Part shown: positions 14,170 through 22,980 of the stretch, piece after piece
Layout of the letters: each line of letters starts with the position of its first letter
How positions within the stretch are numbered: position 1 is the stretch's first letter
Assembly: GCF_002584535.1 (NCBI RefSeq)
Contig: NZ_NUOT01000061.1
Span: 44,506-108,505, forward strand
Origin: Bacillus cereus
Lineage (GTDB): Bacteria; Bacillota; Bacilli; Bacillales; Bacillaceae_G
DNA: 64,000 bases
Reading direction: 5' to 3'
The notes under the pieces: generated by a model
Database searches by the model: none
What the model was told of the DNA's origin: nothing
What the model saw: only the letters and a program-made list of their open reading frames with translations
Made by a program: the position numbers and the translations under genes

Positions 14170-15339
14170 ATGTCCACACTGTTAAAAGCTGGTGCAGATG
14201 CTGGAAATAACGGATTGAAACTAATGGTGAAAGGGCAACAGCCGATTTATATTCCAAGTATTTATTCACTATATATTGGGGAGCCTACAGGTTTATTAGA
14301 CGAAGAGGATGTACCGATTTCTGAAATTGAAAAACATATTGATGTAACAATTTGTTCCCCATCCCTTATGTTAAACAACGTGCGTTATATTGTGGGGCAG
14401 AAAGTGATTAATGATCAGCTAAAAGGAACAGAGATTGAGAAAAAATCTGATAAATCTACAGATGAATTAATGGTATTAACGATTTTATCAGGTTTAGCAA
14501 TTAGTGCTATGCGTCATAGTCCCAAATTGGATCATATTAATATTCGTTACGATTTATCAGTTGCTCTTCCGATGCAAATTATTACACAAGAAATTGCATC
14601 GGAAAACGCTAACCGTTATATGGGAAATCATAAAGTTATTTTTCATTATCCGAACGGAAGAGATGTAACGGTAAATGTCTCCATTGAGTTTTGCAAATGT
14701 TTACCTGAAGGTGCATCTGGTACTTGGGGGATTATATACGATGAAGATGGAAATGTCTTAAAACATAAAGTGGAAGGTGAAAAAAGTTCAACGACTGAGA
14801 TAGATTTCGTTGACAAAACATTATTATCATTTGATATAGGAGCGGGGACAACCGAAGAAGTCGTTTCGTTTGGAGTGAATTTTAGACCGCAATTAAGTAA
14901 AGGGCTGTCATACGGTGTGAAAGAAACCTTATTACAAATAATTACGAGATGGAATCGGAAGTATCCAACAAAAACAATAGATAGTATTACAGAGTTCAAT
15001 CAAATTTATTTATATGAGAAACACCCAAGGCATGCACTATTAGTAGCAGAATCCCAACAAGCACTTCTAGGCTTAGCTGCACGGGTTGCGACAGATATTA
15101 TTAATAAAATTGATGATATGAAAGATGATCCATATGTATTTATCTATGGTGGAGGCGCGGTTATCATTAAAAATAGTTTGGAACTTATTTTAAAACAAAA
15201 AGGCCGTTTAAAAAATGTGATATTTGTAGATAATCCTCTTTTTACAAATGCACGCGGATTACTAGTTTATACATGTTCACCGCGATATAGAGAACATAAA
15301 CAAAAAGAATTAGGATTTACAAACTTAACAATTAGTTAG
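14170..15339 (+). CDS. ParM/StbA-like actin-family ATPase
   Basis: 389 residues with the actin-fold nucleotide motifs: phosphate-1 loop ADAGNNGLKL (residues 8-17), phosphate-2 loop SFDIGAGTTE near 222-231 and adenosine motif YGGGA near 323. These match ParM/StbA/Alp filament ATPases that push plasmids apart. GGGGG lies 7 bases before the ATG. A small gene follows 5 bases later, in the place of the DNA-binding adaptor. I see no plasmid replication gene nearby, so this is a chromosomal or island-borne segregation-type cassette. A role in organising some other cargo is equally possible. Confidence 0.85.
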   Translation: MSTLLKAGADAGNNGLKLMVKGQQPIYIPSIYSLYIGEPTGLLDEEDVPISEIEKHIDVTICSPSLMLNNVRYIVGQKVINDQLKGTEIEKKSDKSTDELMVLTILSGLAISAMRHSPKLDHINIRYDLSVALPMQIITQEIASENANRYMGNHKVIFHYPNGRDVTVNVSIEFCKCLPEGASGTWGIIYDEDGNVLKHKVEGEKSSTTEIDFVDKTLLSFDIGAGTTEEVVSFGVNFRPQLSKGLSYGVKETLLQIITRWNRKYPTKTIDSITEFNQIYLYEKHPRHALLVAESQQALLGLAARVATDIINKIDDMKDDPYVFIYGGGAVIIKNSLELILKQKGRLKNVIFVDNPLFTNARGLLVYTCSPRYREHKQKELGFTNLTIS

Positions 15340-15344
15340 CTGGT

Positions 15345-15686
15345 GTGAGTATGCGGTGTAAGAGGTATAAATGTGGCGATCGGGTAAAAGTATATTTAAA
15401 TAAATCTGTATCTCCTGAGATGCTAGCTTGGATTAATAAGCAATCTGATATAACGAGATTTTTTTTATATGGCGCCGAGCAATTGTTTAAACAAGTAGGA
15501 GATATTGATGTATCTAAAACTTTACCAATTGATCATGTTTTTTTTACGTATGTTGAACCTACTTCTATGTTTAAAATCGAAGTAAATCCTTTAAGAAACG
15601 TAATCAGGAGAAAGAACAAAAATACCGAATGTGTAGAAAATACACCTTGGGAGTCAATTAATGAGTTGGATTGTCCATACTTTTAA
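15345..15686 (+). CDS. small partner of the ParM-like ATPase (ParR-like?)
   Basis: 113 residues if the GTG at 15345 is used, 111 from ATG 15351; the weak GGTGTGAG site does not decide. The first half (VKVYLNKSVSPEMLAWINKQ, then TRFFLYGAEQLF) looks like a short beta strand followed by helices, as in ribbon-helix-helix ParR adaptors; the tail is basic then acidic. It lies 5 bases after the ParM-like gene and ends with a terminator, so the two form an operon. Adaptor function is inferred from position and this pattern only. Confidence 0.6.
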   Translation: MSMRCKRYKCGDRVKVYLNKSVSPEMLAWINKQSDITRFFLYGAEQLFKQVGDIDVSKTLPIDHVFFTYVEPTSMFKIEVNPLRNVIRRKNKNTECVENTPWESINELDCPYF

Positions 15687-15704
15687 AGTAAATCAAAATA
15701 GATT

Positions 15705-15745
15705 GCCCACCACTTTACATATGAAATTAGGGGTGGGCTTTTTTG
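15705..15745 (+). terminator. terminator of the ParM-like operon
   Basis: GCCCACC (15705-15711) and GGTGGGC (15732-15738) followed by seven Ts. Confidence 0.85.
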
Positions 15746-15804
15746 TTGATTACAGTTTTGAACAATAAGGGGGTATAGCAACGATCCATTCTTTTGGGGT
15801 CACT

Positions 15805-15848
15805 AAAAATAGCCACAATCTGTTTTAGAAAAGATTGTGGCTATTTTT
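15805..15848. terminator. second terminator hairpin
   Basis: A perfect 16-bp stem (15805-15820 with 15833-15848, core AGCCACAATC) with a 12-base loop and A/T tails; isolates the ParM-like cassette from the ThiF operon. In the remaining 160 bases up to 16011 I see AT-rich promoter-like sequence but no small precursor or ThiS-like gene. Confidence 0.8.
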
Positions 15849-16010
15849 AATCTAATTTGCAACTTTTAATCGCAATAAGGGGTGAAAATTTTTAATTTTT
15901 TTTACAAATAACTCACAAAAGTAACATATTTTTATCTTACTTTATATATAAGGATTATTTGGTAAGTATTATTACTCAAAATAGTTACTACATATAAGGG
16001 AGACTACAAA

Positions 16011-16859
16011 ATGGATATGGATTCATATTATTGGGAAATGGTCAAGAAGAATATTGGTGTATATTCTGAACAGGAACAAGAATGTCTTCGAAATAAGAAG
16101 GTCATTATTTTTGGATTAGGTGGGGTAGGAGGATATGAAGCAATTCTCTTCTCTCGGATGGGGGTTGGACATATTACTGGTGTTGATCCAGATGAATTTG
16201 AAGTCTCTAATATTAACAGACAAATGTTAGCGCTTTCTAGTGTTGTAGGTGAACCAAAAGCAAAAGTTGCAGAACAGGTAGTGAAAGATATACATCCCTA
16301 TATATCAACAAACTTCTTACAAACAAAAGTAGATGAAGATAATGTAACCGAACTTATAAAAGGGCACGATATTGTAGTAGAAGCTGTTGATGATATGCCT
16401 TCAAGAGTTATTATTCATAGAACTGCTAGAGAATTAGGTATACCAAGTGTAGGGATGTCAGGTAGTCCTCCTACAAGAGGGTTTGTTTCTACATTCTTCC
16501 CAACAGGAGTTCCTTATGAAGAAGCATTGAATGTATCAATTGTAGGACATAAATTAACAAATCCAGAATTAAGACAACAAGTTGCGGATATAAAGAAAAG
16601 TCGTGCTTGGTATTCTGTAGAAAAAGGGGCACCAAAAAAGTGGGCACAAGATTTTTGTGATGGAAAAGTGGGATGGATCATTACACCAATGCGTGCTCAT
16701 CTATTATCCCTATTTAGTTTTCATGAAGCAATACAAGTATTAACTGGTCGTGAACCTCTAGCTAGAGCCCCTAAAGGAATTGTTATTGATATGGATAGTC
16801 ATATCCCTGTTCAAGTAAAAGAAGCCCCAAAGGATGGTTGGGATTATAAAACGCTGTAG
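16011..16859 (+). CDS. ThiF/E1-like adenylyltransferase, first copy
   Basis: 282 residues of the ThiF/MoeB/E1 fold, which adenylates a carboxylate with ATP. Seen: nucleotide loop GLGGVGG (35-41), DPDEFEVSNINRQ (59-71, with the ATP-contacting N-x-N-R), and the magnesium aspartate region EAVDDMPSR (124-132). The zinc CxxC pairs of ThiF/MoeB are absent; only two cysteines exist (residue 25 and one in DFCDG), so a thioester mechanism is unlikely. AGGGAG precedes ATG by 8 bases. First of five tightly packed genes. It shares the ending WDYKTL with the next gene, its paralogue. No ubiquitin-like or ThiS protein is encoded nearby, so the substrate is likely a small carboxylate or a peptide. Confidence 0.85.
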   Translation: MDMDSYYWEMVKKNIGVYSEQEQECLRNKKVIIFGLGGVGGYEAILFSRMGVGHITGVDPDEFEVSNINRQMLALSSVVGEPKAKVAEQVVKDIHPYISTNFLQTKVDEDNVTELIKGHDIVVEAVDDMPSRVIIHRTARELGIPSVGMSGSPPTRGFVSTFFPTGVPYEEALNVSIVGHKLTNPELRQQVADIKKSRAWYSVEKGAPKKWAQDFCDGKVGWIITPMRAHLLSLFSFHEAIQVLTGREPLARAPKGIVIDMDSHIPVQVKEAPKDGWDYKTL

Positions 16860-16871
16860 GAGGAAAATAAT

Positions 16872-17738
16872 ATGTTAACCAAAAATAAAGATACGCAAAA
16901 GATGTATGAAGAAAGTTTCACGCGAAATATTGGTGTTATTTCTGTAGAAGAGCAAGAAAAATTAAAAAATGCTCGCGTTACTGTAGTTGGAGCAGGGGGG
17001 GTAGGAGGAATTACACTCATCCAACTGGCAAGAATGGGCGTAAGTTCTCTACATGTAATTGACCAAGATGTATTTGAAACAAGCAATATCAATCGACAAA
17101 TGCTAAGTTCTATTAGTAGATTAGGAAAATCTAAAGCAGACGTCGCTTTAGAAGTTTTAAAGGACATTAATCCCTTATTACAAGTAGACGTAACAAAAGA
17201 ATTTGTTACCGAAGAGAATGCGTTAGAGCTTCTGAAAAATACAGATCTCATTATAGATGCAACTGATAATTTAGTAGCGAGAGTCATTATCCATCGTACA
17301 GCCAGGATATTAGGGATTCCTTCTATATGGATTGCAGTTACACCTCCTTTTAGAGGTGGCGTGATGTCTTTAGCTCCTGACTCTGTGCCCTATGAAATTG
17401 CATTAGGATATCCATCTTATCAGCAAGAGCTAACACCAGAAATGAAAAATATAATTCATGAATTAAAAGATGGACGTGCTCTTCATTCTGTCAAGCATGG
17501 TGCGGATGAGAAATGGGCAAATAGTTACGTACAAAAAGATCTTCCATGGACTGTACTGTCTCCTGTTGCAAATATTGTAGGTATTCTAGCAAGCTTTGAA
17601 GCATTTAAATTTATAATAAATCGAGAAGATTTAAAACCTGTCATAAGTCCAAATCTAATACAAATTAATCTTTCCAATCAAAATATGGTACATGTATCTG
17701 CACCTGAAAATGATAGTTGGGATTATACAACATTATAG
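16872..17738 (+). CDS. ThiF/E1-like adenylyltransferase, second copy
   Basis: 288 residues, paralogue of the preceding gene (shared NIGV, EEQE, INRQML, RVIIHRTAR, WDYxTL). Seen: GAGGVGG (40-46), DQDVFETSNINRQ (64-76) and DATDNLVAR near residue 136. The protein contains no cysteine at all, so it can neither form a thioester nor bind zinc through cysteines. AGGAGG lies before the ATG, 12 bases after the first copy. The pair may form a heterodimer, as E1 enzymes act as dimers, or act one after the other. Product and partner unknown. Confidence 0.85.
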   Translation: MLTKNKDTQKMYEESFTRNIGVISVEEQEKLKNARVTVVGAGGVGGITLIQLARMGVSSLHVIDQDVFETSNINRQMLSSISRLGKSKADVALEVLKDINPLLQVDVTKEFVTEENALELLKNTDLIIDATDNLVARVIIHRTARILGIPSIWIAVTPPFRGGVMSLAPDSVPYEIALGYPSYQQELTPEMKNIIHELKDGRALHSVKHGADEKWANSYVQKDLPWTVLSPVANIVGILASFEAFKFIINREDLKPVISPNLIQINLSNQNMVHVSAPENDSWDYTTL

Positions 17739-17753
17739 ATGAGGTAAGAGAAT

Positions 17754-18191
17754 ATGCTTCCTTTTTTGTTACTTGGAATTATTGTTATACTTTCTCTGCT
17801 TGTAAAGGATTATGTGCTAGCTGGTGTAGCTTGTTTATTAGGCGTTTTACTTGCTGTTGGACAAAGAACTTTATTACATCTTATTCAACAATATTCTTTT
17901 CCAATTGGTATTTTCTTTCTCATGCTCTTCCTTTTAGTGCCAATTACATCTGGAAAGATTACAAGTGAAAGCGTAATAAAATTAATTACTTCTCCTATCG
18001 GCTTAGGTTCCATTCTAGCAGGTTTTACTGTGTCATACATAGGAGGAAAAGGAGTAGGAGTTTTAACTATGAACCCTACGATTTTGTTAGGTGTCTTAGT
18101 AGGGACTCTTGTTGCCGTATTATTTACAAAAGGGTTACCGGCAGGATTAATTATTGCTGCTGGAATAATAGCTATCGTTTCTATGAAATGA
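17754..18191 (+). CDS. DUF441 (YtwI-type) membrane protein
   Basis: 145 residues, four to five hydrophobic helices. The pattern VPITSGKI near residue 62, a central SYIGGKGVGVLTMNP loop and the ending GLPAGLIIAAGI agree with DUF441 membrane proteins. GAGGTAAGAG lies 4-8 bases before the ATG. DUF441 proteins have no proven role; a place in this operon between activating enzymes and a secreted hydrolase suggests transport of the product or precursor, which is inference. Confidence 0.75.
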   Translation: MLPFLLLGIIVILSLLVKDYVLAGVACLLGVLLAVGQRTLLHLIQQYSFPIGIFFLMLFLLVPITSGKITSESVIKLITSPIGLGSILAGFTVSYIGGKGVGVLTMNPTILLGVLVGTLVAVLFTKGLPAGLIIAAGIIAIVSMK

Positions 18192-18205
18192 AAGGAACAT
18201 TCTAA

Positions 18206-19270
18206 ATGAAGATAAAATGGACACATATTAGTTTAGTAGGTTTATTTTTGATAATTCTTATGTCGGGTTGCTCTAATAGTACAGAAACTTCTCAAAACGC
18301 TCAAACTTCTAAAGTGGTAAAAGAAAAATTAGAAATTCAGCAAGGAGAAGAAAAATTACATTTACTTCATAAAAACTTAAATAATAAAAAACAGTATACA
18401 TCCGATGAAGTAATCTTATTTTTAGAACCATTTAGTGTACCGACTGCTCAAGCATTTGATGTACCAAAATATTCGTGGATGGATGAGTATGCTAGAAAAG
18501 GGTATGATACTTGGGCTATGGATTTCAGAGGGTTTGGTCATTCTTCTCACCCTCAAGAAATGTCAGAACCTCCTTCCAAAAATCGCCCGGTTATTCATTT
18601 GAATGATGCGACAAAGGATCTAGAAACAATCGTAACTTGGATCAAAAAGAAGAGAAATGTGAAAAAAATTCATATCGTTGGATGGTCATATGGAGGCGTT
18701 GTTGCTGGTAATTATGCGATAACCCATCCTCAAGACATTAATAAAATCATTCTATACGGATATATGCATGGATTCGAGCTACCTATGATGACAAAACCTC
18801 TTGAAAATCCATTACAACCTAATCAATTTAATCCTGAGGCATCAGCCTATCAAATGGTGGACTTTGATAAAGGAATGCATCATTGGCATATGATGATGGG
18901 AAATAAAAAAATCGTTACAAATGAAGCGATGGATGCCGTAAAACAAGTATTTATCAATTCGGATCCTATGAGTGAGAAAAACAATCAAATGATCCGTCGA
19001 CCAGTTGGTCCACTAGAAGATTTATATTCTATTTGGAATAATCGTCCTTTATATGATGTATCTAAGATTACTGCTCCAGTACTTGTCATTTATGGAGAAG
19101 ATGATCTATTTGCAGATCGAAATATGATGTCAAAATTAACAGGCGCAAAACAAAAAAAAGAAGTTGTCATCCCTGATGCAACACACTGGGCTGTTTATGA
19201 AAAAAATCATTCCATCCTATTTGAACAAGTATTAAACTTTATAGAAATGAAAGAAGGAAAAAAGAAATGA
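18206..19270 (+). CDS. lipoprotein alpha/beta hydrolase
   Basis: 354 residues. Lipobox LMSGC puts the lipidated cysteine near residue 22, so the enzyme is anchored outside the membrane. The hydrolase fold shows FRGFGHS near residue 109, nucleophile elbow G-W-S-Y-G-G near 160, aspartate in YGEDDLF near 297 and histidine in DATHWAVY near 325. Its 3' end overlaps the next start (ATGA at 19267-19270), so the two are translationally coupled. Being extracytoplasmic, it probably works on an exported or incoming ester, amide or thioester related to the pathway. Confidence 0.82.
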   Translation: MKIKWTHISLVGLFLIILMSGCSNSTETSQNAQTSKVVKEKLEIQQGEEKLHLLHKNLNNKKQYTSDEVILFLEPFSVPTAQAFDVPKYSWMDEYARKGYDTWAMDFRGFGHSSHPQEMSEPPSKNRPVIHLNDATKDLETIVTWIKKKRNVKKIHIVGWSYGGVVAGNYAITHPQDINKIILYGYMHGFELPMMTKPLENPLQPNQFNPEASAYQMVDFDKGMHHWHMMMGNKKIVTNEAMDAVKQVFINSDPMSEKNNQMIRRPVGPLEDLYSIWNNRPLYDVSKITAPVLVIYGEDDLFADRNMMSKLTGAKQKKEVVIPDATHWAVYEKNHSILFEQVLNFIEMKEGKKK

Positions 19271-20682
19271 ACAAGCACATAACAATATTAGATGCAACTT
19301 TACGTGAAGGGGAACAACAATGTGGTGTTCGTTTTTCTAAGGAAGACAAAATTACACTACTTCATATGTTGGAAAATTTCGGAGTACCCCTTATTGAGGT
19401 TGGACATCCAGGCATTTCTAAAGAAGAAGAAGAAATTTGCAGAGAAGTTGCCGCCTCTGCAAAGCAAGCTGACATATTGATGCATGCTCGTGCGAAAAAA
19501 GAAGAAGTTCATGCGGTTTATCGTGCTGGGGCTGATTGGGTAGGAATTTGGGCGTCTATTAATCCTATTTCTTTACAAACAAAGTATACGAATCGATCAA
19601 AAGATTACGTTGTAAATCAAGTGAAACAAGCGATTGAAGAGGCTAAATCTTTAGGAATGAAAATCCGATTTACGATTGAAGATGCCTCACGAACCGCATG
19701 GGAGGATATCTGCCACCTTGGAGAAGTTGCTTATGAAGCTGGAGCAAATCGAATTAGTTTAGCAGACACTGTAGGAATTTGGGAGCCGAGTCATTGTGCG
19801 GAAATCGTGAAAAAGGCTGTTGAGGCATTCCCTTGTGAAATTGAAGTTCATCTTCATAATGATTTAGGGCTAGCAATGGCAAATGCTCTTGCTGCTATTG
19901 ATGCCGGAGCATCTGTCATTGACGCGACTTTGTGTGGAATAGGTGAACGGGCCGGGATTGTTGATTTACTAAATTTATCAGTATTGTTATCTCAAAAATA
20001 TAATCAATACTTTCAACTAAAAATGATTCCCGAATTAACCCAATCTCTTCAATTGGCAACGGGTTGTAAGGTAGATCATTGGAGACCGATTATTGGAAAA
20101 AATGTATTTACCCATACCGCACCATATCATAAAAAAGCTGTTAAGCAAAATTCTTCTGCCTATGAAGGTGTTCAACCTGAAATGATAGGAAGAGTACGGA
20201 GGATGCAACAAAAAAACATAGAAAGAAAAGGACCTCAGCTTTCAAAGTCTTTTCGAATTAGTAAACCATTTGTAAAGGGAGCATCTGAACTTTTATACCA
20301 TCGCGATGGTCCAGGAGAACGTTGGGTACAGATGGATTATAGAACTGATGAACGTGCTTCATTTTATGTCATACAACGTGTATTTTATGACAACCATATG
20401 GATGAGAACTTAGCGGGACATGTAGATACTCACGCACATCATTGTGATAGTGCTTTTATTTTCTGGGGGAATAGAGTAGATGGTACAGGTCTTATATGTG
20501 AAGTGGAAATTGAAGAAGAATTACAAATCATTGAGAGTCCTGCATCTGTTTTTATTCCAGCAGGGTTAAAACATAGGTACAAGTACCTTTCAGGTACAGG
20601 AACGTATACAAACATTGTACTAGCGCCTAATTATAACTCTAGTTTATTAGAGGAAAACTCGTCAAAAGCATTCGTATATTGA
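19267..20682 (+). CDS. homocitrate/isopropylmalate-synthase-like enzyme fused to a cupin
   Basis: 471 residues in two parts. Residues 1-270 are an HMGL-like TIM barrel with the catalytic LREGEQ (12-17), an arginine-rich strand and the metal motif H195-x-H197-N-D, all conserved, so Claisen condensation of acetyl-CoA (or another acyl-CoA) with a 2-oxo acid is expected. GKNVFTH near 278 is the usual linker motif of homocitrate synthases. Residues about 335-465 are a cupin: H385, H389, H391, H392 and H436 (PAGLKHRY) can bind metal. NifV and LeuA do not carry a cupin, so this is not ordinary lysine, leucine or nitrogenase metabolism. It ends the operon. Confidence 0.8.
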   Translation: MNKHITILDATLREGEQQCGVRFSKEDKITLLHMLENFGVPLIEVGHPGISKEEEEICREVAASAKQADILMHARAKKEEVHAVYRAGADWVGIWASINPISLQTKYTNRSKDYVVNQVKQAIEEAKSLGMKIRFTIEDASRTAWEDICHLGEVAYEAGANRISLADTVGIWEPSHCAEIVKKAVEAFPCEIEVHLHNDLGLAMANALAAIDAGASVIDATLCGIGERAGIVDLLNLSVLLSQKYNQYFQLKMIPELTQSLQLATGCKVDHWRPIIGKNVFTHTAPYHKKAVKQNSSAYEGVQPEMIGRVRRMQQKNIERKGPQLSKSFRISKPFVKGASELLYHRDGPGERWVQMDYRTDERASFYVIQRVFYDNHMDENLAGHVDTHAHHCDSAFIFWGNRVDGTGLICEVEIEEELQIIESPASVFIPAGLKHRYKYLSGTGTYTNIVLAPNYNSSLLEENSSKAFVY

Positions 20683-20789
20683 TTAAATATAGGACAGTTT
20701 TTTTATCTGTTACTGTTATGATGATGTTTTAGTAAACCATCTGACTGATAAGAATATAAACAGTCTCAATGTTCTTTATGTAAAAAAAT

Positions 20790-20837
20790 AAAAACAGATC
20801 GTATTCAATATGTTCTTTGAATGCTATCTGTTTTTTT
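20790..20837 (+). terminator. terminator after the ThiF operon
   Basis: AACAGAT ... ATCTGTTTTTTT with an inner ATTCAA/TTGAAT stem; about 110 bases after the last gene. Confidence 0.75.
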
Positions 20838-20876
20838 AATGGCTCCAAAAAGAAAGAATTGTTGCCGTACCCTATT

Positions 20877-22308: not shown

Positions 22309-22980
22309 ATGTGTATGGGTACTTATACCTTTTCTACTATTTGGGGTGATGTTTCAGACATGTTGTCCACTGTATATCCTGGTTCCGGTGGAAGTGGAAA
22401 AGCGTCTGATGTAAAGATCCAATTAGAATATGATTTATTAAGTGGCCAATTTCTGCATGTTCAGATTGCGCCTGGTAAACAAAACGATGTGAACTATGGA
22501 AGAGAAATTCAATCAACAGTAGATTTACAAGATCTATGTATTCGAGATTTAGGCTATTTTAGTTTATCTGATTTTGATGCTATCCAACAAAAGGAAACTT
22601 ATTATCTTTCAAGATTAAAAATGAATACAAAGCTTTATCAAAAGAATGTAACCGCTATGTATTTTAAAAATGGCGTTTTAAAAAAGAACTCTCAATTTTT
22701 CAACATAGCTCTAGAAGAAATCATGCAACAATTACAACCCGGTGAATTATATGAGATTCTACTAGCTTATGTTGGTCGAGATTATAAATTTCCTGTCCGT
22801 GTTGTTATTTATAAACTAACGGCCGAATAAAAAGAACAACGCTTTAAAGCTCGAGCCTATAAAGAAAAAAAGAAACGTATTACCTATAGGGAATGAACAA
22901 AGAAGTTACAAGAAATTGTACCCTATAAAGGTTATCGTATTTGTTTTGAATTGAATGTACTTTCCATTACACATGATGTT
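22309..22980 (+). pseudogene. IS4-family (IS231-like) transposase fragment
   Basis: The 173-codon frame reads GGSGKASDVKIQLEYDLL, SGQFLHV, then DLCIRDLGYF and YYLSRLK..., which is the central DDE region of IS231/IS4 transposases as I know them. The N-terminal third is missing. After TAA at 22828 the similarity runs on (EQRFKARAYKEKKKRITYRE), meets another stop, and then shows scattered traces to about 22980. It is therefore broken at both ends and dead. Inverted repeats of the element were not found. Confidence 0.8.

Follow-up and report, generated by a model that had tools for sequence, protein, structure and literature searches.

A recurring five-gene cassette from Bacillus cereus with two ThiF-type enzymes and a homocitrate-synthase-like aldolase

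On what would two E1-like activating enzymes act when they are encoded together with an aldolase-cupin fusion, a small membrane protein, and a surface hydrolase? The question is raised by an operon at positions 16011 to 20682 of a 64,000-nucleotide stretch of Bacillus cereus DNA (assembly GCF_002584535.1, contig NZ_NUOT01000061.1, positions 44,506 to 108,505), which we refer to as the window. The operon consists of five genes on the plus strand, separated by intergenic gaps of 12, 15, and 14 bases and finally joined by a 4-base ATGA overlap, a layout described in an earlier sequence-only reading of this DNA and confirmed here by the open reading frames (ORFs) and by a Pfam scan that took in eight window proteins. 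The first gene, thiF1 (16011 to 16859), encodes an E1/ThiF-like adenylating enzyme of 282 residues (Pfam ThiF, 2.9e-37) and is followed by its paralogue thiF2 (16872 to 17738; 288 residues; ThiF, 1e-45). The other three encode a small DUF441 membrane protein (17754 to 18191; 145 residues; 1.4e-26), an alpha/beta hydrolase (18206 to 19270; 354 residues; Abhydrolase_1, 1.9e-24), and a fusion of a homocitrate-synthase-like HMGL enzyme with a cupin-like domain (19267 to 20682; 471 residues; HMGL-like, 9.3e-67, and HCS_D2, 2e-8).

Our tentative answer, to which we give rather less than an even chance, is that the operon makes a homocitrate-like acid, which would be activated by the ThiF enzymes, closed on itself or conjugated, and then acted on by the surface hydrolase. 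The sequence-only reading had likewise placed the five genes around an activated organic acid. The idea of one such unit holds up through the conservation of the gene set, the intact ATP motifs, and the aldolase residues, with its statements on the ThiF cysteines and on the aldolase requiring the corrections described below.

Conservation and distribution of the cassette

Conservation of the neighborhood had been named beforehand as the point at which this reading could fail. The cassette was found again in 10 other genomes with an intact ThiF pair, and the reading stands. These are Bacillus-like genomes, members of the Brevibacillus family, a Paenibacillaceae metagenome-assembled genome (MAG), and, from the cyanobacteria, two Oscillatoria genomes. 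DUF441 and the aldolase-cupin are encoded in all 10, the hydrolase in 9, and all five genes together in 8. The core set of ThiF1, ThiF2, DUF441, and aldolase-cupin co-occurred in every intact case found; with the window counted, all 11 cassettes include DUF441. The gene set is kept as a unit, and both this conservation and the classes of the enzymes can be taken as shown. A chance neighborhood was considered and rejected, because the gene set recurs across genera and even occurs unlinked in one genome.

The closest relatives came from a scan of genome contigs with exact peptide patterns, taken from a two-row alignment of the window aldolase and a 41 to 43% relative on a Pseudomonas aeruginosa plasmid. 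The scan gave 51 loci, five of which encode close aldolase relatives (59 to 71%), namely, those of Bacillus sp. DNRA2, Brevibacillus porteri, the two Oscillatoria genomes, and the Paenibacillaceae MAG; a single-protein scan of genome contigs with the window aldolase gave no match. All five genes are present at four of these five loci, the DNRA2 hydrolase gene lies upstream on the opposite strand, and a ThiF2 search recovered the ThiF pair in all five genomes. The cassette of the MAG (G004) is split over three contigs: one carries the ThiF pair and DUF441, another the aldolase, and the third a tandem pair of hydrolases (44% and 42% identical). These tandem lipoprotein hydrolase copies lie apart from the remaining cassette (L082:11291-13470).

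The cassette is rare. Within the B. porteri family, 6 of 39 genomes gave the pair in the ThiF2 search, one of the six (G817) being a remnant; the figures were 2 of 193 for the family of G001 and 1 of 11 and 2 of 8 for two further sets. In overlapping samples of the order, class, and phylum (397, 388, and 398 genomes), the pair was present in the query genome only. No close relative of the window seems to be present in the order sample, since a neighboring window protein reaches only 72% there at best. A spread by plasmids or phages was considered and rejected: no near DNA match to the window was found among 72,556 plasmid records, protein searches of plasmids and phages gave nothing above 60% identity, and IMG/VR yielded no aldolase relative and a single weak ThiF match. 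We found no description of the five-gene set in the open-licence PMC literature, where DUF441 combined with ThiF returned 0 papers.

The G817 remnant is a decayed thiF gene (L076:6980-7824) that contains a stop and whose N-terminal half is nearest to ThiF1 and C-terminal half nearest to ThiF2, which looks like a loss via recombination between the ThiF paralogues. The other cassette genes are unmatched within the 16 kb read around it, and the genome has no aldolase of the cassette kind, with the best matches being at most 35% identical.

The ORFs flanking the cassette vary between lineages, as judged by eye. In the window, the operon is framed by terminator-like hairpins on both sides, in agreement with the strong terminators proposed earlier. 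All three lie on the plus strand and fold far better than shuffled sequence: an upstream hairpin with a T-run (15696 to 15750; -17 kcal/mol, z -3.2), a long upstream hairpin with A and T runs at its flanks (15805 to 15860; -22.9 kcal/mol, z -6.5), and a downstream hairpin with a T-run (20780 to 20842; -18.9 kcal/mol, z -6.6). The stretch from 20690 to 20760, folded in the same way, has no excess stability (z -0.17), and a simple terminator scan listed none of the three hairpins. Just upstream of the operon is the gene of an actin-like protein (14170 to 15686; ALP_N, MreB-like_C), immediately followed by a small gene, an arrangement known from plasmid segregation systems, and a short ORF matching a DDE transposase (DDE_Tnp_1) lies downstream at 22309 to 22830.

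The aldolase-cupin and its sister family

The aldolase domain of the window protein is an HMGL barrel with the catalytic DxTLREGxQ motif and the HxHND-type metal motif. Residues D9, R13, E14, H73, R134, H195, H197, D199, and H288 are invariant in all 23 aligned family proteins, and HCS_D2 matches 22 of the 23. The model of the whole protein has a predicted local distance difference test (pLDDT) score of 81.8, and the top Foldseek match of its HMGL part is the Sulfolobus homocitrate synthase (PDB ID 6ktq; 34% identity). H73 and R134, which we take to bind the far carboxylate of the acceptor 2-oxoglutarate, are shared with the homocitrate synthases 6ktq, 3ivs (Lys4), and 3a9i/2ztj (Thermus) and are missing from 6e1j, a methylthioalkylmalate synthase. 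Four host isopropylmalate synthases, all passing the cutoffs for that enzyme, have Leu at position 73 and Gln or Glu at position 134; R75 does not discriminate. The intact catalytic and metal motifs reported earlier are thus present, and the assignment is refined: the domain looks nearer to homocitrate synthase than to 2-isopropylmalate synthase, with which it shares the HMGL superfamily, and is predicted to be homocitrate-synthase-like while falling below the model cutoffs of both. It differs from homocitrate synthases of the LysS/NifV kind, with which it shares the barrel, the metal and catalytic residues, H73, R134, and HCS_D2, in having a C-terminal cupin-like domain.

This cupin-like domain is the weakest and least certain part of the five-gene description. 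The fusion had been read from the sequence, and the window protein itself has no Pfam cupin match up to an E value of 1. Support comes from the family, since Cupin_2 matches 8 of the 23 members (best E value, 0.00099), none of them the window protein, and from the model, in which the stretch from about residue 351 to 451 is built as beta strands with moderate confidence. The two-row profile gives a weak match to the cupin structure 6j4b (E value, 0.0079), and a sequence search of the PDB with the cupin piece alone gives no useful match. Candidate metal-site residues are D394, found in 23 of 23 proteins, and H389, H391, and H436, found in at least 90%, the histidines being absent from locus L023. 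Other enzymes of this aldolase class carry a regulatory domain at the place taken here by the cupin-like domain.

Aldolase-cupins with the same two domains and about 40% identity over most of their length occur in nonribosomal peptide synthetase (NRPS)-like clusters of P. aeruginosa, Xenorhabdus, and Streptomyces; for the P. aeruginosa protein we assume the locus name PA1217. This sister family comprises 19 loci (L001, L007-L020, L023, L026, L044, and L051), some of them shortened by contig ends. Their neighborhoods were counted by tblastn with the proteins of L044 and L007, and the families were named by Pfam on L044 only. AMP-binding and TauD-like genes are each found near 16 of the 19, asparagine-synthase-like and PhyH genes each near 15, a methyltransferase near 7, and a major facilitator superfamily (MFS) gene near 4; locus L020 has none of these neighbors. 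Unlike the cassette, the sister loci show no match to ThiF1 or ThiF2 in the locus DNA examined.

Both the sister loci and the cassette thus tend to pair this type of condensing enzyme with an AMP-forming activating enzyme, an AMP-binding protein in the former and ThiF in the latter, and these recurring AMP-binding neighbors provide the main comparative support for the adenylation step that we propose for ThiF. A comparable order of events, with a malate-synthase-type condensation followed by ATP-dependent activation, is given for the beta-lactones cystargolide and belactosin in passages of PMC11427300. The activation there uses the adenylate-forming ligase CysF, and a methyltransferase takes part, whereas neither is among the five cassette genes.

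The ThiF-associated copies group as a single clade of the aldolase tree, separate from the PA1217-type proteins (support, 100/100). Within it, the Oscillatoria pair stands beside the Paenibacillaceae copy (87/91, below the starred threshold), and this pairing hints at a transfer of the cassette between phyla.

Two further observations concern the sister loci. An identification of the Xenorhabdus relatives with the ioc/leu beta-lactone cluster was considered and proved wrong, as that cluster is described in sections of PMC9177418 as consisting of leuABCD, leuO, and iocS. At the end of the sister cluster on the P. aeruginosa plasmid (L001:14118-24000), a short AMP-binding annotation precedes genes for Mor, GemA, Gam, and a transposase, and from the annotation a Mu-like prophage seems to lie beside or inside the cluster.

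The ThiF pair and alternative readings

The ATP motifs (GxGGVG, NxNRQ, Lys, and Asp) are intact in both ThiF proteins throughout the 10 aligned sequences, and the CxxC zinc motif of ThiF/MoeB E1 enzymes is absent from all 22 ThiF copies, both as first read from the window. The last residues of all 22 copies follow the pattern W(D/N)(Y/N)xxL, which in the window reads WDYKTL in ThiF1 (codons at 16839 to 16856) and WDYTTL in ThiF2 (17718 to 17735).

The description of the pair as cysteine poor is true by count, with two cysteines in the window ThiF1 and none in ThiF2, and misses a difference between the two. Cys216 of ThiF1 is invariant in 11 of 11 copies, five of these 11 being near-identical Brevibacillus sequences. 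Outside the window, ThiF2 has one to three cysteines per copy, none at a position common to all copies, although the five Brevibacillus and two Oscillatoria copies have one position in common. When ThiF1 is aligned by MAFFT with seven E1-type proteins from the host genomes, Cys216 falls 3 columns before the cysteine of three of them, which lies in a CDTxG- or CAEGG-type motif. The register of Cys216 with the E1 cysteine is plausible from this alignment and not proven, because the HMMER alignment stops short of the region. With one invariant cysteine near the E1 position in ThiF1, the aligned sequences describe an asymmetric pair.

The top NCBIfam match of both proteins is PRK08223, ahead of ThiF, and the PRK14851, PRK14852, and Rv1355c families match as well. 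We take PRK08223, PRK14851, and PRK14852 to be families of the ThiF-oxidase kind. These matches argue for an alternative in which ThiF1 and ThiF2 form azlactones or lactones from an acylated amino acid in the manner of the OxzB/TyzB cyclases, with the aldolase elongating a chain to supply an unusual acyl or amino acid as precursor. In the portions of PMC10404671 bearing on this, Rv1355c is a ThiF-oxidase fusion, and the ThiF homologues TyzB and OxzB are described to cyclize N-acyl amino acids to oxazolones in an ATP-dependent manner, which is likewise ThiF action on small acids. However, the PRK08223 scores of 123 and 141.1 are under the curated cutoff of 266, the cassette has two ThiF proteins in place of one, and the eight window proteins scanned include neither an N-acyltransferase nor a nitroreductase partner. 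We regard this alternative as unlikely.

The asymmetry of the pair bears on a second alternative, in which the two proteins together form an E1 heterodimer whose target, ubiquitin-like or another protein, is encoded elsewhere, with the aldolase and hydrolase serving the modification indirectly. The invariant ThiF1 cysteine near the E1 position would fit such an enzyme, and the AlphaFold model of ThiF2 (pLDDT, 78.8) has Uba4, MoeB, AclA, and ThiF as structural matches, the first two and ThiF being among the best. Yet both proteins miss the sulfur-carrier E1 equivalog TIGR02356 (101.7 and 126 versus 275.25), and the CxxC motifs are lacking throughout. The eight window proteins scanned include no ThiS/MoaD, E2, or JAB family, which bears out the absence of a nearby ThiS noted earlier, the neighbors in other genomes being judged by eye only. 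The co-occurring aldolase-cupin is left unexplained, and we consider a protein substrate decidedly improbable.

The third alternative keeps the aldolase product and changes its use: the cassette would build a homocitrate- or citrate-like metal chelator, the ThiF pair would stand in for the NIS synthetases, which are the usual enzymes for such chelators, and the surface hydrolase would free the metal on uptake. It can be argued, by reasoning from the gene set, from a homocitrate-synthase-like aldolase, two activating enzymes suited to an acid with several carboxylates, and a hydrolase at the surface. Against it, Pfam finds no iron transporter, receptor, or Fur-type regulator among the five genes, and there is no gene for an amine donor, so that a chelator appears about as improbable as a protein substrate.

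A short ribosomal peptide as the substrate, modified at its C-terminus in the way of microcin C or pantocin, the short-peptide cases of ThiF/E1-type action, is very improbable: the sequence and fold matches of the ThiF proteins do include MccB and PaaA, but MccB matches only from about residue 100, its N-terminal part having no counterpart in the cassette, the intergenic gaps are just 12 to 15 bases, and the eight upstream regions share no small ORF with a ribosome site across lineages, one short ORF being found in two Brevibacillus regions only.

A proposed pathway and its meaning

We thus return to the homocitrate-like acid, for which the substrate, the bond formed, and the transport are what we infer from the enzyme classes. 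The aldolase-cupin would condense an acyl-CoA with a 2-oxo diacid (2-oxoglutarate or oxaloacetate) into a homocitrate-like hydroxy tricarboxylate, and the cupin-like domain may regulate the aldolase or alter its product via a bound metal. A putative ThiF1-ThiF2 heterodimer would then adenylate a carboxylate of the condensation product, which Cys216 of ThiF1 may briefly carry as a thioester. The activated acid could close on itself to a lactone or anhydride or join a nucleophile, comparable to the ThiF cyclases for oxazolones. DUF441 may help the product across the membrane, and the surface-anchored hydrolase would open an ester, lactone, or amide outside the cytosol. The lipid anchor of the hydrolase, proposed from the window sequence, is supported by nine aligned copies, in which the cysteine of LMSGC, which we take to be the lipobox motif, is conserved together with the GWS(W/Y)G nucleophile region, the Asp, and the His; a PDB search with the hydrolase gave no relative at an E value of 1e-6.

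Several points weigh against this pathway. The cassette has no gene that would provide an amine, a thiol, or another nucleophile, and we know of no function for the DUF441 family. No hydrolase was found at an E value of 1e-15 in one cassette genome (G851), which is fragmented. The aldolase scores 293.1 with the homocitrate synthase equivalog TIGR02146 (cutoff, 413.55) and 264.7 with TIGR02660 for NifV (cutoff, 462.9), and the isopropylmalate synthase model NF002085 comes close to the better of these with 287.0 (cutoff, 517). This near-equal score is mostly offset by the comparison with the four host isopropylmalate synthases, and the remaining models listed for that enzyme fall further below their own cutoffs. 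Part of the sister family has D at position 198, within the HxHND motif, which is also the residue of isopropylmalate synthases. For the ThiF pair, Cys216 is offset by 3 columns, four of the seven host E1-type proteins have no cysteine there, the C-terminal halves are unaligned in HMMER, and the models are single chains, not the heterodimer.

A bolder form of the proposal seems unlikely to us. Here, the cassette would be a minimal pathway spread by horizontal transfer, and its heterodimeric enzyme of the ubiquitin-E1 type would act via a thioester on Cys216 of ThiF1 on a homocitrate-like metabolite instead of a protein, giving a new class of secreted tricarboxylate derivatives that are matured or switched off by the surface hydrolase.

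Known examples of ThiF/E1-type enzymes working on small metabolites or short peptides are few; one, that of the oxazolones, is given in the relevant parts of PMC10404671. If the proposed pathway is true, the cassette would be an example of an E1 heterodimer working outside protein modification and would represent a natural-product type of only five parts, which could easily be expressed and tested. The cassette also supplies a functional context for a DUF441 protein.

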